A stretch of 64,000 nucleotides of DNA from Pegea sp. RAD2-039 (Eukaryota > Chordata > Thaliacea > Salpida > Salpidae). This document shows, in pieces, positions 1-64,000 of the stretch; the first letter of the stretch is position 1; the number at the start of each line of letters is the position of its first letter. The position numbers were made by a program, and so were the translations under genes. The notes beneath the pieces were generated by a model. It was not told the DNA's origin. It saw only the letters and a program-made list of their open reading frames with translations, and did no database searches. The stretch lies in the NCBI GenBank assembly GCA_034620365.1, contig JAQGEQ010000204.1, positions 372,001 through 436,000 on the forward strand. Reading direction: 5' to 3'.

Positions 1-2106
1 AAACCAAAGTACTTATGATATGCTGTTGTAAATTGTAAATTTTATTTCTTGAAAAATACTCAGAATTAATTCTTAACTAAATCTCTCAAAAATTATGAAA
101 TGTGGTATGACTTGAATACGTGATTTACTTGGAGAGAGTTTGTGTAACATGACAGCTTATTGCTTATTTATATTTGTTTAATTTGTTTTTATATTTATTT
201 GAATTGGTTTATAATAATAATATTTTAACAATTTTTTGTATTCTTCTAAATTATTTTATTACAACGCGTTTTGCGATTTCAGTTTTGAAGGTAAGTGAAC
301 TGTTTTATTATTTTTTTGTTTAAAACTAAAAGTACTTTTAATATTTTCATTTCACATATTCCGTTTCATCAAAAACAATTTTTATTCTTGGACAAACAAA
401 GTTATAGATCAAATTTACTATAATTCCCAAATAAACATTTATAAGGTTAAAAAAATAATGAAGTAGAAAGCAAATGTGAGTACAAATTTAAAACAAAGAA
501 GAAGCTAAAAGTTAAAACTATCAGAGTTTATCTTAATTACTTTGTTTACACACTTGTTTTAAAATCTGATAAATTTAACAGTAATTAAGTGACTGTTTTT
601 AGTTAAACTTAACAAATGTTGTAAAAAAACTTCTTTATAATGTACCAGACAACAAAAAACTTGATTCATAGGAAATTCAGTTTAGTTAGGTTGAAATTGA
701 ATTGTTTATTCAGTATTCAGCAAACATCATGAACTAGCTTTTAACGTTAAAAGGCTGGTAAAGTCTAATAATTAACCAATACGTTAGTTTCTTTTGTAAA
801 ATTTTTAAGTATTATTTATATATAGCAGTTGACAACAAATTTCATCTTGAAATACAATACACAAATTAAAGTTTAGGAAAGCATTAATTGTTAAAAGTTT
901 TGAGATTAATAGTTTTTCACTAGGTACTTGTTAATTTTATCCAAAATTTGGTGTTAAAATATTAGGTTTGTATTTTCCGTAGTTAAGGGCGTTGTCATTT
1001 TATGAACTATTCTACGTTTTAAAGCAAACTGCTCCTTTTTTAGGTTTCACACGTCAAAAAATACCCTGTTAGATATTGTTAGTAGAGAAATATCAAAATT
1101 TATAGACGCAATCAAAGCGATGCTTTCTTTCTTAGGTAATTTTACAAGCCTTTATCAGATCTCTTATTTAACTACCTTTAGTATCTTTATACAAATTGTC
1201 AAAGAGACCCACCTTAATCCTTCAGGTTCTTCTTTAATTAACTTACTATTACTTGAAACTAGTATTTATAAAAATTTGCGTCATATTCAACTATTTAGAT
1301 TATCAAATCACATCACATGACGCCACTCTTCATATAAGAATAGTCTAAAAGTTTGTTTAGTAAATAGACTTGCTATTTGCAAAATATGACATCGTAAAAC
1401 TCTTAGTTTTAAACAAATAGAGCTCTTGGTAACTCTAGCAAACATTGTACACTGGCAATAAAAAGTATGTTTGATCAATTACCAGCCTTTTCTTTACAGT
1501 CCTTTTTTTACAAGTACATTTGAGGTTTTAATTTTCAAGAGCCATTTCACTAATGCAAAATGTAAAACGGTCAGTAGAATGTGTGGCTTAGTTTGCTTGT
1601 TTTTCTCACAGTAGTTTTGATTTTGAGTATCAATTCATATCAAATTTAAGAAACCATTAATCATTAGAAAAGCTTGATGATTTAAGAATTAATTAAAAGT
1701 TTGTTCATAATAAAAATTATTAGAAATAGTGATAATCAAAGATCAGGTTTAGATTAATGGAAAATATTCTTACTTGATACATATAAAAATATTTTTTTTT
1801 ATAATTAGAAGATTAAAATATGGATATCGATTTCATTTTCATTGAGTTTTATCAGTTTTAGTTCAAGTCTTACTAAAATTAAGTTTCTTTTTAATTTTTA
1901 CAAATAATTTTCAAAAAGTTTAGTATACGCAAAAACATCCTCAATAACATAACATAAGTTTTTTGAAAACTAAATCTTATAGAAGAGAAGAAAGATCTGA
2001 CTTTCGTTTAGCACAGAAAAGTGAAATCATTTGTTTAACAGAATATTGTGTCTGTAGATTTAATTGATTAAACATAAAGTTGATAAAATCAGTAAGACAG
2101 CTGAAA
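1..2106. other. Intergenic/5' flank, no gene recognised
   Basis: AT-rich sequence upstream of the claudin-like gene. The longest open frame (about 66 codons near 1120-1320) has no recognisable family features and looks like chance. An 8-base segment at 283-290 is flanked by a good acceptor (ttgcgatttcag) and a perfect donor (gtaagt) and could be a micro-exon or part of a 5' UTR exon of a gene that starts outside the window, but nothing else supports this. Promoter and 5' UTR sequence of the claudin-like gene probably lies at the right end. Confidence 0.5.
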
Positions 2107-5100
2107 ATGAGTGGAGTTAACTATGCTGGTATGGGTTTAAGTATTCTATCGATGGGCGGAATACTATTTTCTACAATATCTAGAGAATGGAAGCGTAATA
2201 GCGCTGAATCTTCACAAGCAAATTTGCATCAAGTTTTTAGCACCTTTGGTCTTTGGGTTCGATGTACTTCACCTTATCCTGGTCAATTCAGCTGTGATGC
2301 TTATGATACTGCTATATTTGGCGTGGAACGTAAGTACTGGTTACTTCTTCTTAATATTGATACTAATTACTTGAAGATAAACTATTAATTTTGCTTTCTA
2401 TAAGTTTGACTATAAATAATTTCAAGTCTGAGAAACAAATAATTTTTGAGGAATTTATGTTAAATACAAATGATTGAAGCTTAACTTTAAATAAATTTAT
2501 GAAAAATATGTTTTTATAAAAAATTTTGATATTTTGATATGTCAGAAAGTGTGATGTTAAGAACTATTATGTCCAAACTAATAATTATCTAACTGCTGAA
2601 AATATCCTTTACATTTTGCTGTTTTTACAAGGAGTCAGTAAAAACTCATCTGTAAAAGTTAATCATTAAAGAAGAATATAAAATCGAATATAAAAATGAG
2701 TTTTTCTTGAAATGATACTCAAATTTCTGCTTCGAATTTATACACTTTCTTCGATTTTAATTTAATTTTTTCAATTTTGAATACATTTATAAATTGAAAG
2801 TTTCAATTTAAACAAAATAATATTGATAAGAAAGCCGAGACATCTTATGATCCAGTTTTTTGTATTTGCTTTTCTGGGGACAATAATAAATTTTAGTTTC
2901 TGTTTAACGTTTATTTTCCACTCATTTCTCTTTACATCAAACATTCTAATATGAAAACACTTAAATAAAAATCTTGCTTTTATTTCAGTATTTCCTAAAA
3001 TGTTTTTTCTCATTAGTTGTTAAACTATAATTTAAAGTTTCATATCACTTTAAACACATCTTAGATAGATTTAATGTCTGTTCAGTATCATATTGGCAGA
3101 CCAAATGACGCATTAATGACACAACACAGCCTGACTCAAACTACTAATGTATAAATTGAAGCAACACAAGATCAGTGTAAGCTCTAAGTGATATATATGG
3201 TAGAGTTAGGATGCGTTATCCAGAAAGAGTTTTTTCTTGTATAGCTATTTGGCTTGCTGCAATAGGTGTAGGGTTTGATGTAGGTTCTCCATTATGGAAG
3301 ATATCAAGCACAAAAGCATCAAAAGTAAAAACAATGACAAATTGTGAAGGGTTATGGGTTCGTTATATTACCGAATTAGATGGGTCTACTCATTATGAAG
3401 CTTTTGAAAAACCTTTTTTTGCTCAGCCTTGTAAGTTTGATCATTTAGAAACAGTTTTTGATAAAAGAGACTTGTTTCTAATCTACTTTAAAGACTATTT
3501 GCTTCCAGTTTGCTATCTAATATTAAATGCTTATCTTTTCTGCTTGGTAATAGTTTTTCTTGTGGTTGTGTTAATTTTTTCTATGATATTTGCAAAATAA
3601 GAGTAGGAAGGTTGTACATGATTTTAAAACTCAATGCTAGTCGATTTTTATTGCCAATGCAACTTAAATTTTTATTGCCTTATTAAATGTAAAATTATCC
3701 AAGTCAACTGATTACAATTTATCTTAAATTTGTTTTGTTTTTATGTCTGATTTTAGGACTCAGCAAATTATAAACTTATGTTTGATGATAAAAGCTTTCA
3801 TTTCATCTCATAAGGTCTCATCTTAATAAGTTAAGATCAAGTATTACGAAATAAGCTAAAACGTCTTTGTAGCAAAATGCGCGGGATAAATTTTCAAAGA
3901 ATTCTAGTTTTTTATCAAAGTTAATATTTAACTAACTTAGGGATGTTGGTTCTACATTAGCTTTTCTATGTGGATACAATGGGGTACAAGCTAATTTCAA
4001 GTAAAAATTTGTTAATGTTAATAAATAATCAGGTTATTTAATGTAAACTGATTAAACTAAGTTTCCAAACCGTTAAAAGCTGTAAATGTAACTTTTTCAA
4101 TTTTTTATTTAGTTTATTTCAACATTTTGACATGTTTCAGCTTATCTTCAAGCACAGCGTGCAATGATGGTCTTGGCGTGTGTGTTTATCCTTGGTGCTG
4201 TAGTCACTTCAACTATGGCCCTACCTTGTACTGCAGCACTCAGTGGAAAACCAAAAAGACAAGTGGCGCTGACAGGAGGAGTACTAGCCATCTTGGCAGG
4301 TAGAAACGACTCCAAAACTTGGAGTCAACATTTTTCAACAGGATCCTCTTCCTTTTGAAATCAACATGCAAAGATCGCGGCGTTTATGTCCTTTTTGTAG
4401 CCTTTCTAATTGCTCCTCCTTTTGTATTCTCTTTGCATGTTGAAACCCTTCAGCACCTCTTCAATTTCAACGAGCAATGATGGTGATTGCCTCATTGAGT
4501 GCAGTTATTGGTGTGATTGCTGCTGCCTTAGGAATGGATTGTATAACAGCCATGGAAGATAGTAATAGGTCAAAAGTTTATACTGGACGCTCAGGCGGTG
4601 GTCTGATTTTGTTATCAGGTAATAAATCCAAAAATCAATAATTGAAGTGATTCGATGATCCAATGGTAAGATTTATCAACAAACCAAGAAAATGAGATGG
4701 CATTGAAAAGTTCTTACTAAATTATAACAATTTTTCCTGAAAAGTATAAAATATTACTACTTCAAGTTTATTGTTTTAAGAAAGGTTGAATTTAAAGTTG
4801 AATAATTTGATCAAATTCTGTAACTTACTGCTTTAATTTTACAATCTTCTTTTACTTTAACTTTTTGGGAATCTAGTCAACCATAACTATCGACAAAGTA
4901 GTTTTTCTAAAATTATAAAAGGGAGCAAAATTAGTTTTATGACTTCTATTCTTACATTTGATGCAGTTTTAAAAAGCCTGATTTTATAGATAAGCAGTTT
5001 TTAACAACTTTGAAAAATATGGTTACAAAGTCTAAATGTTCATTTACAAATTTTGTGAAATGTATAACTTTAAAGTGGTTTGCCATACAGATGTATTTCT

Positions 5101-6375
5101 ACAACACTGCTTATATGCTTGTTTATCACGTTTTGTTTAATTGTTTCATTACATAAAATTCTCAGTCCTCTAAATTGTTGTGCCAACATTAGGTCTTGTT
5201 ACTGTGACTGCCGTATCATGGTACTCGAGCGGAATAATTTACGAATACTTCGATCCAGCTTTACAACATGTACAATTCAAATATGAGTTTGGTTCAGCCC
5301 TCTATGTTGGTTGGACTTCGGCGGTGATTATGAAATTATTTATTTGAAACTTATTTTTCTCATTTCAACAGGAGTATTAACCCTAGCAAGTGTATCATGG
5401 TATGCTGCTGTAGTTGTACAAGAATTTCACAAACAGCAATTAACAGGAGCAACTTTTGTTTATGAGTTTGGTTCAGCTTTATATGTTGGGTGGATTACTT
5501 CAGTAAGTAGAAGAGAAAGTTGAAAGTATCGCCTTAGAAGTGTGGATACTTTAGTTGGTGTGAATCAAAACCAATCAAAACGACTCTAATTTGTAACAAA
5601 TTTGTTACTCTGGAAAAGCTCTATCATAATAAGGATTCAGAGAACAAGTTTAATTAAAGCCAATAATTTGCAATATAATTTGAAAATGCAAGATCAAATA
5701 TAATTTAGAATTACAAATATAAAACGCATGCTTTAATTGACTTGCTTCAAACTTGAAAATTATTTTTGCTGTTTTTATCAATTGTGCAAACTATTAATGC
5801 AAAGAAAATCGAATCGAAAAAGTAGCATGGCTTGCTTAGAAGACAATCAACTTTGTAACTTTATATTGATTCTGTGAATTTCAGTCTCTTGATTTTTTAT
5901 TTGTTTTACATACGATTAGAATTTAAAACAATTTTTATGTTTCATTGTACTCAATAATTATATTTTGTGTTTTGTTTGTTTAATATAAGAGTGCTCAAGT
6001 ATTTTCATCGTATCTGCAAAGAGCTTTTATCATGTTAAGTTTTACTTTGTGGTGCTTGAGATAACAAAGTGAAATTTTGAAATTATAACAAACAATTTTC
6101 ATAAATTCACTGCTTAATTGAATCTTTCAACTAAAATACTTTTATCTTAAGTTGTTTAATTTACTTAAGAAAAATAATTTTAGAGTTATATAAAAATCAC
6201 TATGCTGATTTGTTTCTTAAGAGCTGTTATCTTTAACCAGGTTCTCGCTATCATTGCTGGATTTCTTCTACTGTGCTGTAACTGTGGAGGTAATGAGGAA
6301 TCAGATGATTATCCTTACAATTATGGACACGCTGCAGCCGCACCGACCAAACGTGCTAACACCGAATATGTTTAA
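2107..6375 (+). CDS. Claudin-like tight-junction protein with duplicated exons 1, 2 and 3
   Basis: Four-transmembrane claudin family protein, expected at cell-cell junctions, where claudins form paracellular barriers or channels. Exons of one form: 1A 2107-2329, 2A 4141-4299, 3A 5193-5323, 4 6241-6375. These give 648 bases and 215 residues, the usual claudin length. Exon 1A carries the signature W-GLW-C-C of the first extracellular loop (GLWVRC, then a second Cys ten residues on). Exon 2 has QRAMMV, like the claudin second membrane segment. Exon 3 has VSWY and the conserved G(A/S)ALYVGW of the fourth segment. Exon 4 ends NTEYV, a PDZ-binding C-terminus as in classical claudins. Every exon border has GT-AG sites and matching phase (1, 1, 0). 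Each of exons 1-3 has a second phase-compatible copy (1B, 2B, 3B, listed separately), so up to eight isoforms are possible. Family assignment is secure; the exact claudin subtype is not. Confidence 0.85.
3211..3430 (+). CDS. Claudin alternative first coding exon 1B
   Basis: A second first exon with its own ATG at 3211 and a strong donor (gtaagt) at 3431, ending in phase 1 exactly like exon 1A (220 versus 223 bases). It encodes a first membrane segment (FSCIAIWLAAIGVGF), the conserved PLW, and GLWVRY. Aligned without gaps to 1A, both first-loop cysteines are replaced by tyrosine (codons at 3364-3366 and 3394-3396). Because it starts with ATG after about 880 bases of intron sequence, an alternative promoter is the simplest way to use it, as in vertebrate CLDN10 and CLDN18. 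Splicing to either exon 2 copy keeps the frame. Confidence 0.75.
4454..4618 (+). CDS. Claudin alternative exon 2B
   Basis: Second version of the exon for the second membrane segment, 154 bases of intron after exon 2A. Acceptor at 4452-4453 (accctt-cag), donor gtaata at 4619. Like 2A (159 bases) it begins needing two bases of a codon and ends in phase 1 (165 bases). It encodes LQFQRAMMVIASLSAVIG, close to LQAQRAMMVLACVFILG of 2A, and keeps the Cys found at the end of this segment in claudins (GMDC versus ALPC). Including both copies would keep the frame but add an extra membrane segment, so either/or use is expected. Confidence 0.75.
5372..5502 (+). CDS. Claudin alternative exon 3B
   Basis: Second version of the exon for the second extracellular loop and start of the fourth membrane segment. 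It is exactly 131 bases, the same as 3A (5193-5323), with identical phases (1 in, 0 out). Shared residues include SVSWY/AVSWY and YEFGSALYVGW. Its donor is strong (gtaagt at 5503), while that of 3A is weaker (gtgatt at 5324). The two copies are separated by only 48 bases (5324-5371), which probably makes splicing 3A directly to 3B difficult. Confidence 0.8.
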
Positions 6376-20800: not shown

Positions 20801-20869
20801 ATTAAATAGCTGAAGTTTATTTTAAACAGATTTCAGATGTTTCTATCAAAGAGTTAAATCATTATTATA
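17846..20869. other. Intergenic, upstream of DCAF15
   Basis: About 3 kb of very AT-rich DNA with only short open frames. No gene or repeat is recognised. A six-codon upstream reading frame (ATG at 20837, stop at 20855-20857), placed directly after an acceptor-like tttcag, precedes the DCAF15 start by 33 bases. It may mark the start of the exon carrying the coding region. Confidence 0.4.
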
Positions 20870-23263
20870 ATGAGTTTTAAAAAATCTGGTTCAACTTCTG
20901 ATAAACAGTTTAGAAAATTTTCTGCCATACATATATTAAAAAATCGTGAAATTTATGGAATTGCTTGTCATCAAAAGAGACGAAACCCAGGTGGAACGCC
21001 ATCTAGAATATTCTCAACTTTACCTAATAGACTTGTATTTTCATTAAAAGATATTGTTAGTATAGAAAAGTTAGTGGAAGAAGCTCATGTCTTTCTTGGA
21101 TTTAATAGTGATGGGACACTGCTCATATCTTATACTGAAGTTTTTGAAGCTGAAGAAAACACTGGGTTTCCTTCTTATGTATATTATTTACATTGGTGGC
21201 TGTTTGATTTTCATAGATCAATGAAAAAGCTGGCATCAGTTCGTTTGTTTGCAAATGAGAAAGTGTCATCACCACTCAAGCTCACCTACGCTGAGTGGCC
21301 AAAAACAAAATCGAAAATAATTTTTTATGGCTGGGAAAATGATTTAGAAAATTGTTATATTACTGTAGCTGCTGTACCATCTTTATTAAATTGTTTGAAC
21401 TGTTCTTTTGTAATAACTGACTCACAAATTTCTTCACCAGAAAAATGTCTTGAACATGGTTTTTCTGTTCATATGAAACATACATCTGTTTCTTCTCATA
21501 CAATTATTCTTAACTCTAGAGGACTTAGGATTGACAACTTGATCATCTTAAACATGGGTCATTCTATTGCTGTCATGAGTTTAGGAATTTTAAAGAAAGG
21601 AGCCAGTACAGACTGTTTACCATTATCATTATTCAAAAAAGCAAATTCAAGAAAAGAAAAGTTTTCTTCCACTACTTCAGAATCTAATAGTATGACTGAC
21701 AGTACTAAATATAGCTCTCAATCAAGTGAAAGTTATAATAGTCAAAAGTTATCTCAGTGTTCTGTTGAAGACTTTTCAGAAAGAACAAAGTCAGAAACAG
21801 ATGCAGATGTTTGTTCATTCCCACAAAATTCTCAAGATTCTCAAATCTCTATCAACAATAAAAACACTTTGGTGTCTCCACATCATCCACCTGAAAAAAC
21901 TCATTGTGCTTGCAACAAACAAATGCCACCCCCATCAAGTGATTTTCGAACAACAAATTCAGCAAAGTCGTCTCAAGAAGACCCTTATTTTGATTATTAT
22001 TCAGAGCCTAAAAGTATAGTTTTAAGACAACCATTTTCTCAGATAGACGCTTCTAAGTATCACAATGAAAACGTTTGTATTGGAGTTCATTCTAGTAACA
22101 GAAGTATGCAGTTAAATAAGGAATGTTTTTCTGCTGCTTCTGTCAGTAGTGCTAACCGCTCTAGGCTGGGAATAACAAGAAAGCGTTATAATACTCAGAA
22201 TGTGGAAAATGATTGTGATAAAATGCCATTGTCACCTGTTCAAGATTGCTCTATAACTTTTAAATCTTCAGAAAGCACCGAAGTTCTATGTACTTACTGT
22301 GGACTGAAAATAGATAACAAATCACTGTGTTTGCCTACTGTAAAGTTTTCAGAGGATAAAAAGTCGAAAAATTATCTGTCTCAAAAGCATAATTCTTTTG
22401 CTTCCTGTAATTTTCTGAAAAATCGAAAGTTGTTACTAAGTGAAATCAAAGAAGCACATGAACCATGGCAACATTCACTAGACCTAAACGCGCCAACACC
22501 GAGTCCTTCGACCAGTGAAAGCAGTTTTGGTGAAGTAGGTTCATCATCAGTAATTAAATCTGGCCGTCAAGGTGAAGGTATTTCCTTCATTGAGACACTT
22601 TATGAACAAACGCTCGACGTTCGAGCTGACAATGAGTTCAATGCTGCCTTATCTTCTGATGAAAATGGCCTTTTTTATGGACCGGTCACTTTCCAGGGAG
22701 ATGCTGGCGTACCCCTGATACCATGTCAATCTAATAATACATTAGATGCTGCTGCCTTCAGCCAAGATCTTGTACTTGATATTGAGCATGTCATCTTTGA
22801 TGTACTCCTCACCCGTTCCTACGTTACATATAAACTTGGTATGCTAATCGATTATGACGTTCAAATTGTAAACACTTGTCCCGCTACTCATTCGGTAACT
22901 ATGTTTGTTGTGGCACTTCTTGATATTTCAGCTAAACGAAAACGTGAAGACAATCATCAATCCTCACCTAAGCCTTCAGTATCCAAGAATAATTTTCATG
23001 AAGTTCAGTTTTTTCTTTGCTGGCGTCTTCAAACTGGACGGTATGAGGTGGTTGCTTGGCATTTGAGGCCTTATTCTGAAAAAGTAAGTGGTAAATGGGA
23101 TGCATCATGGACAAGAGAAGTTTGTACCAAGGTACGACATGTTGATGCAATCCCACAAAGTCGTCATTCATCTGTCTATTCTTTAAACAATTCGAATGTA
23201 ATTAGTGGAAGGTCGTTAAATCTGTTATGGGACCCCGACCAAATGTATGTCATTCGCAAGTGA
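20870..23263 (+). CDS. DCAF15: DDB1- and CUL4-associated factor 15 (DCAF15)
   Basis: Single uninterrupted reading frame of 797 codons. DCAF15 is a substrate receptor of the CRL4 ubiquitin ligase: it binds DDB1 and DDA1 and recruits substrates. The N-terminal half shows the conserved blocks LPNRLVFSLKDIV, AHVFLGFNSDGTLLISYT, YYLHWWLFDFH, VRLFANE and LTYAEWP. These are followed by a small cysteine-containing segment (LLNCLNC) and CLEHGFSVHMKH. The middle (about residues 245-600) is a serine-rich low-complexity linker, longer than in vertebrates (human protein about 600 aa), and holds a CxxC pair (CTYCGLKI). The C-terminal domain is conserved (LDIEHVIFDVLL, IDYDVQIVNTCPATHSV, FFLCWRLQTG, TRE-C, LLWDPDQMYVI). 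ATG at 20870 is the first in frame. The complete absence of introns contrasts with its neighbours. Confidence 0.9.
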   Translation: MSFKKSGSTSDKQFRKFSAIHILKNREIYGIACHQKRRNPGGTPSRIFSTLPNRLVFSLKDIVSIEKLVEEAHVFLGFNSDGTLLISYTEVFEAEENTGFPSYVYYLHWWLFDFHRSMKKLASVRLFANEKVSSPLKLTYAEWPKTKSKIIFYGWENDLENCYITVAAVPSLLNCLNCSFVITDSQISSPEKCLEHGFSVHMKHTSVSSHTIILNSRGLRIDNLIILNMGHSIAVMSLGILKKGASTDCLPLSLFKKANSRKEKFSSTTSESNSMTDSTKYSSQSSESYNSQKLSQCSVEDFSERTKSETDADVCSFPQNSQDSQISINNKNTLVSPHHPPEKTHCACNKQMPPPSSDFRTTNSAKSSQEDPYFDYYSEPKSIVLRQPFSQIDASKYHNENVCIGVHSSNRSMQLNKECFSAASVSSANRSRLGITRKRYNTQNVENDCDKMPLSPVQDCSITFKSSESTEVLCTYCGLKIDNKSLCLPTVKFSEDKKSKNYLSQKHNSFASCNFLKNRKLLLSEIKEAHEPWQHSLDLNAPTPSPSTSESSFGEVGSSSVIKSGRQGEGISFIETLYEQTLDVRADNEFNAALSSDENGLFYGPVTFQGDAGVPLIPCQSNNTLDAAAFSQDLVLDIEHVIFDVLLTRSYVTYKLGMLIDYDVQIVNTCPATHSVTMFVVALLDISAKRKREDNHQSSPKPSVSKNNFHEVQFFLCWRLQTGRYEVVAWHLRPYSEKVSGKWDASWTREVCTKVRHVDAIPQSRHSSVYSLNNSNVISGRSLNLLWDPDQMYVIRK

Positions 23264-37900: not shown

Positions 37901-40900
37901 AATCTCAAAACTTTGTATTCAATCTATATTTACACAAACTAATAATTCTAAAATTGTAGCTTTGGTTTTGCAATGCAAGATAATCTTCCTTACTACTTGT
38001 GTCTTGAAGACGGTTTTTGGGATCCAAAGCCCGAAATTCCGCACGATTGCTCATGTACGAGTATAAAGTTGATAATCTATTTTTGAACTAGCTTTAATCG
38101 TTTCATCAAGTTTATATCGAATTAACTAATTTGGCTGTTTCAAAAAGATTTTATTGTTTTTCTTACAGATCAACGCTATTCAAGTGAAATTTACAAAGGC
38201 TACAGAATGTCTTATAAATTACCTGTAGGTCAAAATTGTTCTACCCCAGAATATCTGGAGAGCGTTAGGCAAAGTGTCTTCGAAAAATACGAGCCCTTAG
38301 TAAGTTCTTAATTGAAGTATGCATGTTGAGAGTTCGAAGAACATTAGAACAAAACTGCTTAGCTAAAAAAGCTTTTTTAAATACAAAATAATTCCTTATT
38401 TGGTTGACTATTTTTATGTATTTCTAAGAATAATTTTTCGTGGTAATTAATTTTAGAGAGAATTTTTATCTGAGGCTTATCTATTCATTTATACTTTAAT
38501 AGGTACCTGGGTGGTGCTCTAATTCACGAGTCAATCTAATATGTTCGTTAGTTTCTGTAAAAGTTCAATGTGTTCTACTTGGAGAAGAAGAAGAAGAAAA
38601 TGAAGAAGAAGTTCAACAATCAGAATCCCGGCTCTATTATTATTATAATGAGGATTATCCATATTACAGTGAGTAGAATAAATAACTTCCTTTTTAATAT
38701 CAATTTTCTATTAATATACTTGAGAATGCATCTTTAAGATATCAACTTAGAAAATAGTTTTTTAACTTTTTTGCTAATTTATTCATTTAGACCCAGAGTA
38801 TTAATTGCGAATTTTATTAGATACTAGAACAAAAAGGGAGATAAAGACTTTTGAATCAAAAAAGAAGCGACGACGGTTAGTTAAACAGTCATTTTAAGTT
38901 TTAATACACAGCATTATATTAAGAAAAACTTAGAGAGCTTTATATCAAGTATCAATAAGTTAAACTTCACAACCTAAATGCACTTATATGTAGCTATGAA
39001 TATTTTATATTAACTGAATCAAATATGCATTTGTTACAATCTAATTTAAAGAAAAACTTATTTTTAAAATATTTTTACAATTAGATAACAAACTAAACTG
39101 AATTAAGCTGAGTTGTTTTAACAATTTTTAATAACAACTCTTTTTTAATATAATTGATCAGTAAAAGCTTTAATCAATTTTGTTTAATACAGAAGATATC
39201 AGTATCAGTATCAAGAGAAAGATTACGAACCAACACCCCCTCCTCCATTGAGTGAATACGATTATGATAGCGATTATGAGCAAACACCTCCTCCTCCATT
39301 GAGTGAATACGATCATGATAGCGATTATGAGCAAACACCACCTCCTCCATTGAGTGAATACGATCATGATAGCGATTATGAGCAAACACCACCTCCTCCA
39401 TTGAGTGAATACGATCATGGTAGTGATTATGAGCAAACACCACCTCCTCCATTGAGTGAATACGATCATGATAGCGATTATGAGCAAACACCACCTCCTC
39501 CATTGAGTGAATACGATCATGGTAGCGATTATGAGCAAACACCACCTAGACCTCGAGGAAGAGGTGATAACAGCATTTATGAGCAAAACGAATATAATTC
39601 CAATGATGAAGAATATGATGGTGGCTATGGAGATCAGTCTGATCCAATTTATGGGGATTACCCAGAAGAAGATGAACCAGATGATGATTATCCTGATGAT
39701 AAACCAGACGAGAAGGATTTTGGACAAAAACTTAGTGGGACTGGAGACGAATATGAAGATGAAATTTATCAAACTATCCTTCAAACTGATAGTACTACTA
39801 CTCAATATGAAATACAGGTTATGCTTCTTATACGAGGTTAGTTATAGATGAATAAGTATTTTTGTACTTTTACTTATCTTTAAGCAAGACATCAAGACTG
39901 AAATGTTTATTACTTTTAAATAGCTATTTAAAAATGAAAGATGAAATTTATGAGTTATCTTGGTGAAATATTAAAAGAAAAATGTAATTGCTTATTATAA
40001 ATCAAAATATCTTGAAAAATGAAAGTTTGAAATAATAATTTACCATTTAAAGGACATATTTAGATAAATAATCAGAGCTTTTGACAAACTGGCGAATCTT
40101 TTTCAGCTGAAGTAGTTTTAAATGATGACAATGTTGAAGAGAGTCGAAAACGGCATTCAGCGATGTCGGAGTTCTTTGATCAAATTCAAGTCAATGACTT
40201 CAACATTGAACAAATGCAGTCAGTTCTAAATACTTAAAACTAAAAAAAAATAAAGTTTCTGATAATTGATCTAAAATCAAATCATCCATTTACTTGAAAA
40301 ACTATTGCTTGTTTAAATTATTTAAAGAGAAAATTTTGACTAAAGTGTTTTATTTTGTATTAATGTTGCTTTTTTGTTCTTCTAAATGATGAAAATTAGA
40401 GGCCGTAGTTTTGGAAATCCTCTTGAATTTCAAGAAGGATCCTATGAAGCAACTGAGTATCAATTAAAGTGCCCTATAGGATCTGTTTTGCGACGATCAG
40501 CATTTTGTGGTTAGTATTTGTAGCTACAAGGCTCGCAAAACTAATGAGCAACTTTTTCTTCCATATTTCCAAAAAAATCCATATTTTTTAATGCTTCAAC
40601 GTTTTACATTTTGTATCTGACAGTTTCAAATGTAGTCATCAATATAATCATTTTTACATTTTCATTTGACACTTTTTTATAGATAATAAAAGTAAAGATA
40701 TTGTAAAAATATTATTCTAACCTAAGAAATATTAGTTGAGTTGGAAAAAAATATTGGATAACATATTAATTTTATTTCTCTTCTTAAAAATGTTTACTAT
40801 TTTTGCTTTACAATTATTTTATAAATTGAATTCCAATCATTCAAAGTGTTACTCACTGACTTTTTGTTTTTTATCATTCATTTTAACAACTTGTTAAAAT

Positions 40901-58900: not shown

Positions 58901-61900
58901 AAAACCTTTTAACCATTCAGACATTTCTTCTGATCCACCTTTATGCTTACCAAAGTCTTGTGGAGATCCACCTTCTTTGCAATTTGCATCTTACTCGACT
59001 GTTGACAAGAATGCTGGCTTCACATTTGGAAACTCTGTCAGGTAAATCATTCCAAATAATAAATCTGTTCTATTTTGTTCTTACTTAATTTTTAGCTGTT
59101 TAAACTTTTTATATTACTTTATTCAAATTAAAATGATTAAGTTATAAAACCTTTTCTAGATATACTTGTAATGAGGGATACTATCCAACTGGTGATGACA
59201 CATTACTATGTCAAGCTGATCAAACGTACAACTCCACAGTGGACTTCTTCCAATGTCTTCCTGTTCCTTGTGTTTCTCCCACTTCACCACAATATGGATC
59301 ATTTTCTCTTAAAACTAATTTTGCTGTATGTATAAATTTTTATTATAATAAGTTTTATAATTACAACTTTTGTGTGATAAAATTCCTCTCTAAGGAATAA
59401 ACTTATCTATCCAGCTTATTTTGACATTTTTCAGTTACTGGAAATAAAGAAGAATCAACAATTAAATGGATTGCGAGCAGCAAAAACAATTTCCCAGGTA
59501 ACTTTTTTGCAATTCACATAATTTCTTACTTGGTAATTCAAGCTAATTAATTTGTTTCTGACTGTAAATAAAATCTGTATTTTAATTCATCTATATTGTT
59601 GTGTAAATATTTTATTCTATTTTTATTCTAATCGTTTATATTTTAACTTTAAACTTCTTTGAATGGATTTTCTGTAGTATTTTCATGTAGCAGTTTGAAA
59701 ATATATTTTCTATTTTTTATAGCTTTTAGTTGAAGCTACTAAAAGTAACATCACTTACAAGTTTGTATATTTTCAGCAGCAAAGCACAGATGAAAATGGA
59801 TTTGTTTTTGGAGATATTGTGGATTACTTCTGTGATGATGGTTTCACTTTGGAAGGAAACACTGAAGTTACTTGTCAATCAAATGGTGAATGGTCTGGAT
59901 TACCACCAACCTGCTTACCAGTTGTGTGTCCTATTGAAGAAATTGAAAATGGTTATTATAGGTAGGATTATTATTTTATATTTAACTCTTTTTATATTTT
60001 TCTTTTCTATCTTTGAAAGTAGAATTAATATAAATATTATTATAAAAAATCCTGACAAAATACTATTTAAACTGTTTTTAATTGACTTTATAGTCTTCAA
60101 AATGGTGATTTTGGAGAAGGAAATGTTTTTGGCAGTATTGTTATATACATATGTTACGAAGGATATGCACTTACTAAAAGGTCTATCCATATCCAAACTT
60201 GTGGTGAAACTGGTGCCTGGTCAGGTGAACGACTGATATTATAATGATATTAGAACGAACCATTTCTTTATAGAATTACCTGTTTTTTTATAAAGCATCG
60301 TTTGAAATTCTTATTCTATCACAATAAAAAATGATTTCTTTTTATTTAGATAAAGTACCTATATGTAAACTGGTCTTCTGTGGTGTAGCTCCCAAAATCA
60401 ATTTTGCTATCAGATCAAATAAGTCAAAACTTTCATATAACCAAACTTCTGAATACAAATGTCAATCTGGATTTGAAACCAGTGACGAAACTACAATTCG
60501 AGTGAGTCTAAATAACGAGATTAAAAATTTTCAATAGAAACGATGACTAAAAACAGTTTTATGTCTTGTTAGTGGTAATTTTCAATAAACATCAGCAGCT
60601 AATCTCTAACTATTTCAATTTATTCATTAATATTGAAAACTTAAATCTGTAGTGCCAGCAAGATGGAACTTTCACTCCTCTGCCAGTTTGTCATCCGGTT
60701 AGATGTGGAGAAGCTCCTTCGGTTGAGTTTGCATCTATAGCATACACTGATGAACATGCACCTTTCTCATTCCAAACAAAAGCTCGATACATTTGTGAAA
60801 AAGGGTTTGAACTTGTTGGGAAGGAAGTTTTAACTTGCAAAAGTAACAGAGAATATTCGAAAAGTCCTCCTAAATGTAAAGTCATCACCTGCCCAATTCC
60901 TGGTAATGATTTCACTGAACTTAACTTAATACAAAATTGATCAAATATTTTTAGTTTTTATGTTTTTGTAAAGCGTTTTATTTTATCAACAATCAAATTT
61001 TCAGAGTTTAAAATATATTGTTGCAGTCTTGACAATGTTCCAATAAGCTTTTGTAACACGTTTAAAATGTTACAGAAAATATACAACATGGATTTGTAAC
61101 TACATCTGTTGCAAGAAATGTCTCACATCCTGAGCTTTATGGAAAAGGAAAACATGCTCCTAATTCTGTGGCTGTATATGTTTGTGACGATGGCTTTCAA
61201 GTAAAAACAGTTATATTTATAAATTGAACGTATTTCTTAGCTTGCACTATTTATTCAAACATTTGTGATAAAAATAGAATAAGAAACGAATATTTTTTCA
61301 TCATTGTAAAGCAACATTTTTTTAAAACAAAAATTATTTATTTGTAGATTGGTGATGTGGTCGAAGAAGATGAAGGTGAAAAAGACGAAGAAGAGTTACT
61401 GACTGTCTTATTGGATTTAAAATTAGGTGATTTAAGTAGTATGAAATATTGGTGTCAAACTTCATGTTTAAATATCAAAAAATGCAGATGATAATTTAGT
61501 GAAAATGTATCTACCAACTGTTCGTTGTTTTGATCCTTTTTATTCAACTATTACCAATTCACGACGGACTCTATTTTCTTCTCAGATCTTTTAGACAAAC
61601 CACAATCAAACAAAGTAAGGACTCTTGGTATGGATGACGATTCATCCTTTCATCATCTCCGATCCTGTCTAGACAGTGGAGACTGGCAGGTTAATGTGCC
61701 AGAATGTAGTCGAATGACTTGTGGGAAGCCTCCTTATAGACCTAACTCATTTTTCAATCCAATAGGTATTTAGTTACTTTTTATAATTTTAAGTATTAAT
61801 TCTTCTAAACACCTTTGACTTTTTATTTTTCAGATGCTGGAGACAAACTTGTGATGTTCTCTGGAACTGTTCAATATGAATGTGATGAAGGTTATTATGC

Positions 61901-64000
61901 TCATCATGATGAAGATGATTATGGCAGTGGATTTGAAGCTTCTGGTTCGAATCAATACTTTGAATTCATGGAAACGGTTGCTTGTGTTTGGGATGAAACT
62001 CTTCAGGATGTAGTTTTTGATAAAGTTGTGCAGTGCAAACCTGTACCTTGCCCTGAACTACAAATACCAGATCATTCTACCTTCCACGCGCACTTTGATT
62101 CACCCCCCGTTGATAATCAATACGTATACGAAACTGTCATCACATTCTTCTGCGATTCTGGGTATGTACTTAATTTAAAAACGAATAGATTAAACTCTGT
62201 TTTATCTTAAATATCATTTTACTTTTTAAAACTTTGGAAAAGCATTTCAAACGAAATAATTTTGATGATTATAATGTAAAAAGTTTTAGATGCTAAAATC
62301 TACGCCAAGACTTTATAAATGACATCGATATTCAATTGAACAGATACCGTCGAAAAGGTGCTAAGGAGATTGAGTGTCTATCAGATTTGGCTTGGAGTGA
62401 CGATCTTCCAACATGTGAACCAGTAAATTGTGGCGAAATCAGTCCACCCTTAAATGGCCAAATGATTGGCGATGTATTTACATATGGAGAGGTTTTAGTC
62501 TTTTCGTAAGTTTTTTCTATGCAACAAAAAATTTAACCTTATTTTAACAAATCCTTAAAAGGACAACCCTCGCCACGCAAATAAATAAAAAAAATAAGTT
62601 TGTAAAACTTCTTTTAATTATTATCAATTTCTTACAGATGTGATGAAGGCTATGAACTTGATGGAGAATCTGATACAATAGAATGCTTAGAAGATAGATC
62701 ATGGAGTGGACTACCTCCTGAATGCCGACCTCTTCCATGTGGAGAACCTCCTCTTCTAACGCATGGATCTGTAAAATCCGACTCTAACTTTTTTGGAGGA
62801 ACAGCACTTTATAAGTAAATATTTTCTGTAGTTGTTATTGAACAAATATAATTTGAGAGTAGTTGTTAAGATTGTGTTTGTTAAGCTCTATTTTGTCATA
62901 TACTCAGTTTATAAAAACTAAATTTTATTCAAATTAAATACAATTAATTTTCTATGTTCATTTGTTTGTAGAATTTTCATTGTTAAACTGAAAATCTTAG
63001 ATACTCAAATAATCTCACTTCAAAGCTTTAAAACAAACAATTTTTGTTATTGTTCAGATGTGATGAAGGTTTTGAAATCAATGATATTCAGTTGCTGACT
63101 TGTGAATCTGATCAAAGATGGACTGCAGATGAGGAAGGTCGTCAACCAAAATGTAGCAGAGTCCGGTGTGAGATTATCGAATTGACACCACATTTGGACT
63201 ATAAATTTGATCATATACCTGAAGATTTCTTTACTATCCATATTCCAGAAAAGTTGTAAGAGTTTATGTTTTGAGCTTTTTTTGTTCTATAAAATTTATC
63301 TCTAAAAACTTGTTCTTTCAAATCATAACCAGCTTAACGCTACTTAAATAAAGCTACAAAAACTCATCAGCTATTATTTACAGTCAAGATTTTCCATATG
63401 AAGCACAAATCTCCTTCCACTGTGATACAGGATTCGAACTTGCTGGAACTCAGACACCAGTAACTTGTCAAGCAGATGGAACTTATTCTAGTAAGTTTGA
63501 CTCTTCCATGTTTGATTAAACTATTAATTTCTATAAATAAACTCATATAAAACGAATAGCATGACACAAAACTAAAATAAAACAATGGAATAAAATGTTT
63601 AAACTTTTGTAGAACCATTCCCAACTTGTCAGCGAAAAGACTGTGGCCCTCCACCAGTACCTCACCAACACCAAGCAGTTACTGGTGAAAGAACAACCAC
63701 ATTTGAGAGTATAGTGATGTATTCATGTCTATATGGCTATTATCCTTTGACACCAACAACTATCGAATGCCTTTCTAATGGTAGATGCATTTTGTTAACT
63801 TCTCAATTGATTTTTTAAACTTAAAAACAACTGTTTCAGGTGAGTGGTCTAGAACTGAGATTCCATTATGTGAACCAGCAGATTGTGGACCACCATTTAT
63901 TCCTAAACATGGTGCTGTAGCCGGAGATGATTACTTTTTACACAGTGAAATAATATTTTCTTGCAATCCCGGTTATAACTTAATAGGAACAGATGTAGCT
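33202..64000 (+). CDS. SVEP1: SVEP1/polydom-like giant secreted adhesion protein (3' end outside window)
   Basis: I could chain 82 coding exons with matching phase and GT-AG borders, about 4,190 codons, still open at the window edge. This is already longer than human SVEP1 (about 3,570 aa). Domain order is the same as vertebrate SVEP1: signal peptide, von Willebrand A, cysteine-rich module, sushi 1-3, two HYR, divergent sushi, a Tyr/acid-rich segment, three GCC2/GCC3 modules, six EGF, pentraxin/LamG, sushi with one EGF, then a long sushi array. Vertebrate SVEP1 is an extracellular matrix ligand for integrin alpha9beta1 and Tie-family receptors, needed for lymphatic development. The role here is unknown. 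The C-terminal EGF repeats of SVEP1 are not reached. The gene hosts an antisense LRR gene in the intron 41685-45885. Exon coordinates are given in the block entries. Confidence 0.93.
35051..36379 (+). other. SVEP1: SVEP1-like block 2: cysteine-rich module and sushi domains 1-3
   Basis: Exons 35051-35227, 35288-35427, 35538-35760, 35835-36014, 36173-36379. The first exon holds [11 protein letters not shown] and [12 protein letters not shown], the second a GCC2/GCC3 module ([23 protein letters not shown]). The next three exons each carry essentially one sushi (CCP) domain with four cysteines and the usual G-Y/F and W positions ([32 protein letters not shown]). They are 1-1 phase modules typical of exon shuffling. 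Confidence 0.85.
36682..37709 (+). other. SVEP1: SVEP1-like block 3: two HYR domains
   Basis: Exons 36682-36797, 36991-37120 (first HYR) and 37343-37459, 37584-37709 (second HYR). Each domain starts D-PP/SP followed by a Cys ([28 protein letters not shown]) and has W-P-FDDNSA or W-P-FEDNSG. Each ends with the Y-T/A-D-SG...C pattern ([26 protein letters not shown]). HYR domains are immunoglobulin-like folds that sit between sushi domains in SVEP1 and related proteins. Confidence 0.85.
37791..38875 (+). other. SVEP1: SVEP1-like block 4: divergent sushi, acidic/tyrosine run and polybasic exon
   Basis: Exons 37791-37893, 37960-38054, 38169-38299, 38503-38665, 38821-38875. The first two make a divergent sushi domain ([20 protein letters not shown]). 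The fourth carries a (GAA)n-derived glutamate run and [12 protein letters not shown], in the place where vertebrate SVEP1 has a shorter Tyr/acid stretch. The last small exon ends in KKKRRR, a polybasic sequence that matches furin-type cleavage preferences. Vertebrate SVEP1 also has a basic site in this region. Confidence 0.7.
39193..39836 (+). other. SVEP1: SVEP1-like block 5: large acidic tyrosine/proline-rich exon
   Basis: A 644-base exon, the largest in the gene, beginning with a YQYQYQ stretch right after the polybasic site and carrying the tandem repeat described separately. It continues with [20 protein letters not shown] and [14 protein letters not shown]. It ends in the conserved-looking IQVMLLIR, which joins in phase 1 to AEVVLNDD of the next exon. 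This ending fixes the donor at 39837 (gttagt), because the earlier GT at 39818 leads into a stop. The many Tyr flanked by Asp/Glu are good candidates for tyrosine sulfation in a secreted protein. Confidence 0.75.
39248..39553 (+). repeat. Coding tandem repeat, 6 copies of 51 bp (17 aa)
   Basis: Six direct copies with starts 51 bases apart (39248, 39299, 39350, 39401, 39452, 39503), unit protein [17 protein letters not shown]. Copies differ by only a few bases (dat versus cat; gatagc versus ggtagt), so the array is young or homogenised. Because 51 is a multiple of three and the unit has no stops in other frames, the antisense strand also stays open over this stretch; those antisense frames are artefacts. 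Confidence 0.9.
40107..41684 (+). other. SVEP1: SVEP1-like block 6: linker and three GCC2/GCC3 (ephrin-receptor-like) modules
   Basis: Exons 40107-40218, 40400-40509, 40920-41081, 41272-41433, 41523-41684. The first two encode a linker ([27 protein letters not shown]). The last three are each exactly 162 bases, 1-1 phase, and each codes one cysteine-rich module with the C-x2-C-P-G-(T/S) and GxYxD/GFYQD patterns ([34 protein letters not shown]). Order and content follow vertebrate SVEP1. Confidence 0.88.
42369..44857 (-). CDS. Leucine-rich-repeat single-pass membrane protein, nested in SVEP1 intron
   Basis: Complete 8-exon gene: 44857-44678, 44464-44254, 44144-43937, 43794-43674, 43493-43324, 43258-43126, 43007-42847, 42531-42369. 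Phases agree throughout, giving 448 residues. A signal peptide ([16 protein letters not shown]) leads into a cysteine-bearing N-terminal cap ([12 protein letters not shown]). About seven LRRs follow ([61 protein letters not shown]), then a C-terminal cap (GNPLKCKNC...CEKQHLC). A very basic helical stretch ([19 protein letters not shown]), a Thr/Ser stem and one membrane segment ([19 protein letters not shown]) complete it, with a tail of only about 15 residues. It is probably an adhesion or receptor-like surface protein. I cannot assign a specific family. It lies wholly within the 4.2-kb SVEP1 intron on the opposite strand. One intron uses a GC donor. Confidence 0.85.
43323..43323 (-). other. 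GC-AG splice donor in the nested LRR gene
   Basis: The exon ends CTA AA and the intron starts gcaagt. Splicing here joins GNPLK to CKNC, the expected LRR C-terminal cap, in the required phase 2. No GT in that phase exists nearby. It is the second GC-AG intron in the window. Confidence 0.7.
44858..45885. other. Remaining intron sequence upstream of the nested LRR gene
   Basis: About 1 kb of SVEP1 intron that also serves as the 5' flank of the antisense LRR gene. It is AT-rich, and no further coding or repeat feature is seen. Confidence 0.4.
45886..46987 (+). other. SVEP1: SVEP1-like block 7: six EGF domains
   Basis: Exons 45886-45951, 46029-46106, 46171-46258, 46328-46467, 46555-46756, 46830-46987. 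After a short linker the exons encode six EGF modules, as in vertebrate SVEP1. Five carry the calcium-binding start ([50 protein letters not shown]). One exon holds parts of two domains, and several introns fall inside EGF domains at phase 2 after the third or fourth Cys. Confidence 0.9.
47446..48746 (+). other. SVEP1: SVEP1-like block 8: pentraxin/LamG domain
   Basis: Exons 47446-47659, 48237-48478, 48532-48746. Pentraxin/laminin-G-like features are LDLVFDN-type start, [65 protein letters not shown], and [12 protein letters not shown] near the end, matching the single pentraxin-like domain of vertebrate SVEP1. The last exon also begins the next sushi domain. Confidence 0.88.
48945..51736 (+). 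other. SVEP1: SVEP1-like block 9: sushi domains with one inserted EGF
   Basis: Exons 48945-49106, 49174-49290, 49551-49677 (calcium-type [19 protein letters not shown]), 49826-49987, 50091-50252, 50361-50523, 50801-50919, 51185-51358, 51444-51560, 51616-51736. Sushi hallmarks recur ([55 protein letters not shown]). The single EGF among sushi domains is at the same place as in vertebrate SVEP1. Most borders are phase 1; some domains are split at phase 2 just before the third cysteine, the pattern also known from complement-control proteins. Confidence 0.88.
52177..53982 (+). repeat. SVEP1: Sushi higher-order repeat, unit 1
   Basis: Exons 52177-52342, 52434-52478, 52636-52820, 52942-53072, 53285-53436, 53570-53789, 53862-53982 (166, 45, 185, 131, 152, 220, 121 bases; 340 codons). 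The unit spans five sushi starts (LPVPC, LPVVC, CELVIC, CNPIKC, CLPKSC). The second exon is a 15-residue glutamine-rich linker ([15 protein letters not shown]) inserted inside a sushi domain. It is nearly identical to unit 3 in exons and introns. Confidence 0.88.
54100..56365 (+). repeat. SVEP1: Sushi higher-order repeat, unit 2
   Basis: Exons 54100-54277, 54911-55089, 55412-55542, 55613-55764, 55949-56168, 56245-56365 (178, 179, 131, 152, 220, 121 bases; 327 codons). Same exon order as the other units, but no separate linker exon. The start of its first exon and of its 220-base exon are nearly identical to units 1 and 3, while the middle exons are diverged, so the unit looks mosaic. Two introns (54278-54910 and 55090-55411) are longer than in unit 1. 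Confidence 0.85.
57215..59041 (+). repeat. SVEP1: Sushi higher-order repeat, unit 3
   Basis: Exons 57215-57380, 57472-57516, 57695-57879, 58001-58131, 58344-58495, 58629-58848, 58921-59041, with the same lengths as unit 1. Each feature lies 5,038-5,060 bases after its counterpart in unit 1, and introns align almost base for base apart from one 21-base insertion before 57695. Homology to the unit 1 region starts at the first exon's acceptor and ends inside the next unit's first exon (about 54218 versus 59277). Confidence 0.88.
59160..60902 (+). repeat. SVEP1: Sushi higher-order repeat, unit 4 (partly diverged)
   Basis: Exons 59160-59325, 59435-59497, 59777-59961, 60094-60224, 60350-60501, 60653-60902 (166, 63, 185, 131, 152, 250 bases). 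Exon order and phases repeat those of units 1-3. The linker exon is 63 bases with unrelated sequence ([16 protein letters not shown]), and the last exon is longer and lacks the 121-base partner. The 185-base exon is very close to those of units 1 and 3; the 131- and 152-base exons are clearly diverged. Confidence 0.85.
61076..64000 (+). other. SVEP1: SVEP1-like block 10: further sushi domains with acidic inserts, runs off window
   Basis: Exons 61076-61200, 61348-61426, 61586-61765, 61834-62161, 62344-62505, 62638-62814, 63058-63255, 63384-63490, 63613-63780, 63840 to the window end. The exon at 61348-61426 inserts an acidic run ([16 protein letters not shown]) in the middle of a sushi domain. 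The exon at 61834-62161 carries acid-rich [17 protein letters not shown] in a loop, with two Ser-Gly pairs. The rest are ordinary sushi domains ([40 protein letters not shown]). The reading frame is open at base 64000. Confidence 0.85.

Follow-up and report, generated by a model that had tools for sequence, protein, structure and literature searches.

A tunicate claudin gene with tandemly duplicated exons and an apparently coordinated choice among them

Claudin diversity in vertebrates comes mainly from the possession of many genes. Exon choice within a single claudin gene is also established: in the available passages of the source, vertebrate CLDN10 (10a/10b) is described as having alternative first exons that swap the first transmembrane segment (TM1) and the first extracellular segment, which changes charge selectivity (PMC6862131). 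Three tunicate claudin orthologs have been counted in a paper whose available passages do not mention alternative exons (PMC11203038), and we found nothing on point about alternative claudin exons, in tunicates or in general, in the literature titles and abstract starts that were searched. For mutually exclusive exons of the Dscam type, RNA pairing is described as the lock in the part of the source at hand (PMC6071210), and a paper cited there, on Dscam exon 17, names steric hindrance in its title. Here we describe a claudin gene of the salp Pegea sp. RAD2-039 that begins upstream of, and extends into, a 64-kb stretch of DNA referred to below as the window (contig 42:372001-436000, forward strand, of a 105.7-Mb assembly).

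Our reading, to which we give a probability of about three in four, is that this one gene yields several claudins from tandemly duplicated exons and that the choice among these exons is coordinated. Four exons, alpha, beta, 1A and 1B, would serve as alternative 5' coding exons, each encoding TM1 plus the first extracellular loop and each probably with its own 5' end, provided by a putative promoter of its own, by putative spliced-leader addition or by both. One of two second exons (2A/2B) and one of two third exons (3A/3B) would then be chosen, and all would be joined to a single exon 4. The 5' exon would dictate the choice of exon 2, and the predicted outcome is a few coordinated claudins, not all 16 combinations, with different first extracellular loops and hence different paracellular selectivity.

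Exons of the locus and their coding potential

The original prediction placed seven claudin exons on the plus strand of the window, and their positions, lengths in nucleotides (nt) and phases are borne out. Exon 1A (2107-2329, 223 nt) is open and ends at the donor GAAC/gtaagt, and it carries the start, TM1 and a first extracellular loop that bears W...GLW-C-C; exon 1B (3211-3430, 220 nt, donor CCTT/gtaagt), also open, is a candidate fourth first exon. Exon 2A (4141-4299, 159 nt), which would encode TM2, the inner loop and the start of TM3, is followed by exon 2B (4454-4618, 165 nt). The third exons, 3A (5193-5323; end of TM3 and second extracellular loop) and 3B (5372-5502), are 131 nt each, and exon 4 (6241-6375, 135 nt) holds TM4, CCNC, the C-terminal NTEYV, which is a PDZ-type tail, and the stop. 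Every internal exon border of these seven exons is GT/AG, and all eight of their combinations give an open frame (645-654 nt, 214-217 amino acids).

That exons 1, 2 and 3 are duplicated before a single last exon is correct as observed, but it understates the locus, which has two further first exons outside the window. Both were found by searching the assembly with the claudin. They lie upstream of the window, are open and have a GTAAGT donor in phase 1: alpha (contig 42:368645-368879), with GIW and then the cysteine pair, and beta (contig 42:371766-371991), with GLW and then the cysteine pair. Beta ends at contig base 371991, which puts its end ten bases short of the first window base; the stretch between beta and 1A occupies window 1-2106 on the plus strand. 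In contig 42:350001-384000 the search gave no additional copy of any of the four exons at E<0.5 (E, expect value), apart from one stop-containing match with E 0.40. In all, the locus has four candidate first exons, two second exons, two third exons and one last exon.

All four isoforms scanned, of the eight possible without alpha and beta, match PMP22_Claudin (Pfam PF00822) at 63-74 bits, against a curated cut-off of 26.7. The first-loop claudin signature, W-GLW-C-C, is present in beta and 1A and, with the GIW variant, in alpha. Unlike these three first exons, all of which keep the cysteine pair, 1B retains W and GLW and has Tyr at both signature cysteines, so that 1B isoforms lack the full signature. 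The PDZ-binding YV at the C terminus encoded by exon 4 is also terminal in 24 of the 26 non-vertebrate homologs that have that end. Other claudin matches in the assembly lie on contigs 12, 21, 30, 48, 121 and 262; first-loop and third-exon-like claudin pieces are repeated at contig 262:919000-939000 and contig 21:318000-328000, which suggests ordinary tandem whole-gene duplicates there.

The 2A/2B and 3A/3B pairs are adjacent homologous exons of equal phase, with alignment scores of 76 and 118 against 23 and 17 for the best of 1000 shuffles; 3A and 3B are identical at 19 of 43 residues. The score for 1A and 1B is 38, reached by 1 of 1000 shuffles, with 18 of 72 aligned residues identical, and alpha and beta are closer to 1A (35/73 and 29/74 residues) than 1B is. 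The idea that 1B is a direct copy of 1A finds no support, given the weak similarity and a long, unplaceable tree branch, and a single clade of 1B and alpha was weakly rejected (p value of the approximately unbiased test, p-AU, 0.038).

A coding signal was seen in every exon. Exon 1B is free of stops and has a codon score of 30.4. For comparison, 500 windows of 219 nt were taken from the introns that also define the background; their scores average -14.8 and reach at most 9.1, and none of the 500 was stop-free in the frame read. One reverse frame of 1B comes close, at 29.8, yet holds five stops, so that freedom from stops is the stronger part of the evidence, and 1B looks coding despite its weak similarity to 1A. 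Exon 3A has a codon score of 19.8 and no stop, and it retains YEFGSALYVGW intact.

Exon joins and the choice of exon 2

Searching proteins with the claudin gave environmental sequences and Ciona claudins as the best matches. We aligned 32 of the 36 proteins returned (P0032, P0034, P0035 and P0036 were excluded), and two open reading frames (ORFs) among them, which come from environmental contigs of near-identical organisms and are known as protein translations only, bear directly on how the exons are joined. The first exon of P0017 is 93% identical to 1A and is joined to a second exon identical to 2A, after which the protein runs into the 2A/2B intron as RNDFKTWSQHFSTGSSSP, where the window reads RNDSKTWSQHFSTGSSSF. 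In P0028 a first exon 95% identical to beta is joined to a second exon 98% identical to 2B, and the protein then continues into the intron that follows, where it agrees with the window if a frame shift of one base is allowed for. Because the joins span genomic gaps of 1.8 kb (1A-2A) and about 4.5 kb (beta-2B), they imply splicing, even though the intron after exon 2 is kept. The retention of this intron in both proteins (window 4300-4356 and 4619-4660) may hint at slow or regulated splicing.

Both P0017 and P0028 end before exon 3, so that the shared last exon is seen only in relatives. There, P0001 (1A-2A) and P0003 (beta-2B) have different exons 1 and 2 and identical last 88 residues, P0007 and P0009 likewise differ in exons 1 and 2, with the same pairing, and are identical over their last 89 residues, and Ciona P0013 (1A-2A) and P0010 (beta-2B) are identical over the last 57. 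The first two pairs come from two further tunicates, so that both forms are seen in three lineages besides that of the window. We infer that each of these three pairs comes from one gene. Different first segments on common downstream ends, the arrangement that defines the CLDN10 type, are thus found at the protein level in relatives, and each full-length homolog aligned has one exon 2 member.

The types of exons 1 and 2 are associated. Both exons can be read in 27 tunicate-like rows (P0026, which has no exon 1, and four vertebrate rows were left aside); in these, a 2A-type second exon occurs in seven of the eight homologs with a 1A-type first exon and in none of the 19 others (Fisher p = 9e-6), although the Fisher p-values overstate the case because the rows are related to each other; a smaller table of 15 rows gives p = 0.002. 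The alpha and beta types are close in P0016, P0018, P0020, P0022, P0023 and P0027, which leaves the split of 1A versus the rest unaffected. Exons 1 and 2 look coordinated rather than freely combined.

Which of the exons are in use is a separate matter, and here an alternative with somewhat less than even odds has to be taken seriously: that only part of the array works, with beta/1A and 2A/2B in use, 1B and 3A decaying or rarely used duplicates and alpha minor, so that the locus would make two main claudins, 1A-2A-3B-4 and beta-2B-3B-4. The third exons of P0001-P0007 and P0009 are all closest to 3B, as a partial array would predict, and no clearly 3A-type exon was found among the tunicate-like homologs, in which P0012 (131 vs 119) and P0023 (124 vs 118) lean toward 3A and P0013 is nearly tied between 3A and 3B (123 vs 125). 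None of the 32 aligned homologs has a first exon closest to 1B; P0014 is alpha-like (155 vs 124). The failure to find a near-identical 1B or alpha sequence, the missing cysteine pair of 1B and the unusual donor of 3A fit the same alternative. Set against it are the open frames and coding-like codon use of 1B and 3A (with 0 of 500 intronic 219-nt windows stop-free), the intact YEFGSALYVGW of 3A and the small size of the transcript sample. The original pairing of 1A with 1B does fare poorly, since the attested alternative to 1A is beta, and 1B has neither transcript support nor the two signature cysteines. Beside these third exons we note that P0034, an ORF from ENA, has a 3B-type exon followed by VSKRES, where window 5503-5523 reads VSRRES; the start of the intron after 3B may be conserved.

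The original prediction envisaged up to eight claudins by independent combination, which with the added first exons becomes free production of all 16. We consider this improbable. The exons of the window do give an open frame in each of their eight combinations, and in Ciona the 1A type is joined to 2B and 3B in P0008 and to 2A in P0013; however, the presence of 2A in 7/8 homologs with a 1A-type first exon and in 0/19 without one speaks against free combination, and P0008 is known as a database protein only. The remaining alternative, two or more nested claudin genes each with its own last exon, which had been named as one case that would overturn the prediction, is suggested only by the tandem order of the first exons; P0017 and P0028, which end before exon 3, do not bear on it. 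It is hardly credible given the one exon 4 found at E<0.5 in 34 kb and the exactly shared ends of P0001/P0003 and P0007/P0009 (88/89 residues).

Candidate locks, spliced leaders and the age of the duplications

If one gene makes a coordinated choice among these exons, inclusion of both members of a pair would have to be avoided. Inclusion of 2A and 2B together stays in frame, and inclusion of 3A and 3B together shifts it. The 2A/2B intron (4300-4453, plus strand, 154 nt) contains two hairpins, at 4308-4326, just after the 2A donor, and at 4333-4360, followed by a perfect stem of 14 base pairs (bp) at 4361-4374/4430-4443 that ends 10 nt before exon 2B (all on the plus strand). Its minimum free energy is -41.6 kcal/mol (z -5.46; 1 of 200 shuffles folds as well), and its z is the lowest of 639 plus-strand windows scanned with 40 shuffles each, one other window being lower in energy. 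The stem is the only perfect inverted repeat of at least 12 bp (loop 3-100) in the 64-kb window, and 0 of 3000 shuffles reach 14 bp. Within its loop, at 4406, lies CTAAT, a branch-point-like motif that we take to be the likely one for 2B. In the model, the stem would loop out the branch-point region of 2B and block splicing from 2A to 2B, possibly by making the acceptor of 2B inaccessible to 2A. Two other accounts of this intron were set aside: a mobile element, as a genome search found the intron in a single copy, and a known RNA, as no Rfam match was obtained over the window and 4290-4470 gave one chance-level match (15.8 bits against a threshold of 55).

The 3A/3B intron (5324-5371, plus strand) is 48 nt long, compared with 80, 104, 111 and 355 nt for four introns measured in three further claudin genes of the assembly. 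It is possibly too short to splice, which would block inclusion of both third exons. RNA stem and short intron may both prevent double inclusion.

Five upstream ATGs lie within 160 nt of 1B and three within 160 nt of beta, and alpha and 1A have none. The assembly also contains exact copies of the 16-base spliced leader of Ciona, the sequence of which is given in the available part of its source (PMC7986045). The leader, followed by GTA, forms an array at contig 4:1134845-1142220, repeated in tandem about every 199 bases, and further exact copies are present, among the matches listed, on contigs 11, 19, 38, 70, 194, 216 and 249. Together with the best protein matches, the exact leader marks the genome as that of a tunicate.

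The exon 1 and exon 2 duplications probably predate the split from Ciona. In trees that rest on 44-76 columns, 1A groups with Ciona, Styela and other 1A-type first exons (support 93/96), 2A groups with the second exons of P0001, P0007, Ciona X3 and C. savignyi (85/80), and the 2B clade comprises 20 rows (96/95). With constraint groups named after the tree was seen, an origin within the window's lineage was rejected for 1A/beta (with P0017 and P0028; p-AU 2.8e-7) and for 2A/2B (with P0028; p-AU 8e-4), and a 1A clade without Styela was not rejected (p 0.186). At exon 3, Ciona's two third segments group together (99/91) and window 3A is unplaced; neither a shared origin with Ciona 3A (p-AU 0.133) nor a window-specific 3A+3B (p 0.2) was rejected. 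The exon 3 pair of Ciona may be independent in origin.

Taken at its widest, the argument would have a promoter or spliced leader select the 5' exon, and this selection set exon 2 through an RNA stem switch, a hard-wired splicing code that would use a few matched pairings where there is room for 16 isoforms; the code would have been kept since before the Ciona split and have re-evolved at exon 3, and the 1B branch would make a claudin without the canonical disulfide. We regard this wider version as speculative and, taken whole, unlikely.

Several observations count against one gene with coordinated exon choice. P0017 and P0028 retain the intron after exon 2 and are not fully spliced mRNAs. No near-identical transcript of 1B or 3A was found in the protein searches, nor one of alpha, for which the search returned one protein in all, although these searches require shared 5-residue words, which makes the absence of alpha, 1B and 3A matches weak evidence. 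The 3A donor, GCG/GTGATT, deviates from GTAAGT, the usual donor consensus. Coupling has a sole exception, P0008, a Ciona database protein that is 1A-2B-3B, and the four vertebrate rows come out as non-1A first exons with 2A second exons, most of them narrowly; if they are counted as exceptions, the Fisher p becomes 9e-4. The grouping of Ciona with window 1A (93/96) and 2A (85/80) stays below the starred level of support, and the stem is without comparative support. Finally, a reading of 3 kb of the leader array did not turn up the Ciona Sm motif AGCTTTGG, which makes the array units candidate leader genes.

Elsewhere in the window, 20858-23263 holds an open frame of 801 codons that matches the DCAF15 WD40 domain (159.6 bits), 39188-39841 is a tandem repeat of 51 bases with coding units, open on both strands, whose plus-strand frame is without a Pfam match, and the open stretch at 61809-62210 contains a Sushi domain (30.1 bits).

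Comparison with known systems

Exon choice in this gene would alter both extracellular loops together with the intervening helices, and the choices at different exons look linked. If confirmed, the gene would be a compact natural system in which to ask what segments of a claudin have to match and how the splicing of distant exons is coordinated, and it would bear on how often exon duplication replaces gene duplication. Claudins with alternative exons are already known; new here is one with more alternatives and apparent coordination.

Nor is the pairing of all three upstream exons unique to this locus, as had been supposed. In the Ciona claudin-1-like gene (F6PQC6), isoforms X1 and X3 differ in three upstream segments and share the last 57 residues, so that, as in the window, alternative segments 1, 2 and 3 precede a shared end, and its 1A-type and 2A-type segments group with those of the window. 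Unlike the window, the Ciona gene shows only two first segments (with exon borders inferred from the protein alignment), and its third segments pair with each other, possibly reflecting a separate origin. The two forms of CLDN10, as far as the available passages describe them, differ in exon 1, whereas the locus described here duplicates exons 2 and 3 too and has four first exons.

Clusters of the Dscam type, in the portion of the source available, consist of tandem homologous exons of which one is chosen per transcript, RNA pairing acting as the lock; the window has tandem homologous exons too and may work in a similar way. It differs in having two exons per cluster, and a single local stem takes the place of docking and selector sequences, with no competing structure shown. 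In variable-first-exon arrays such as UGT1A and protocadherin, tandem 5' exons are joined to shared 3' exons; in the claudin gene, unlike these, the downstream exons alternate too, apparently in step with the first exon.

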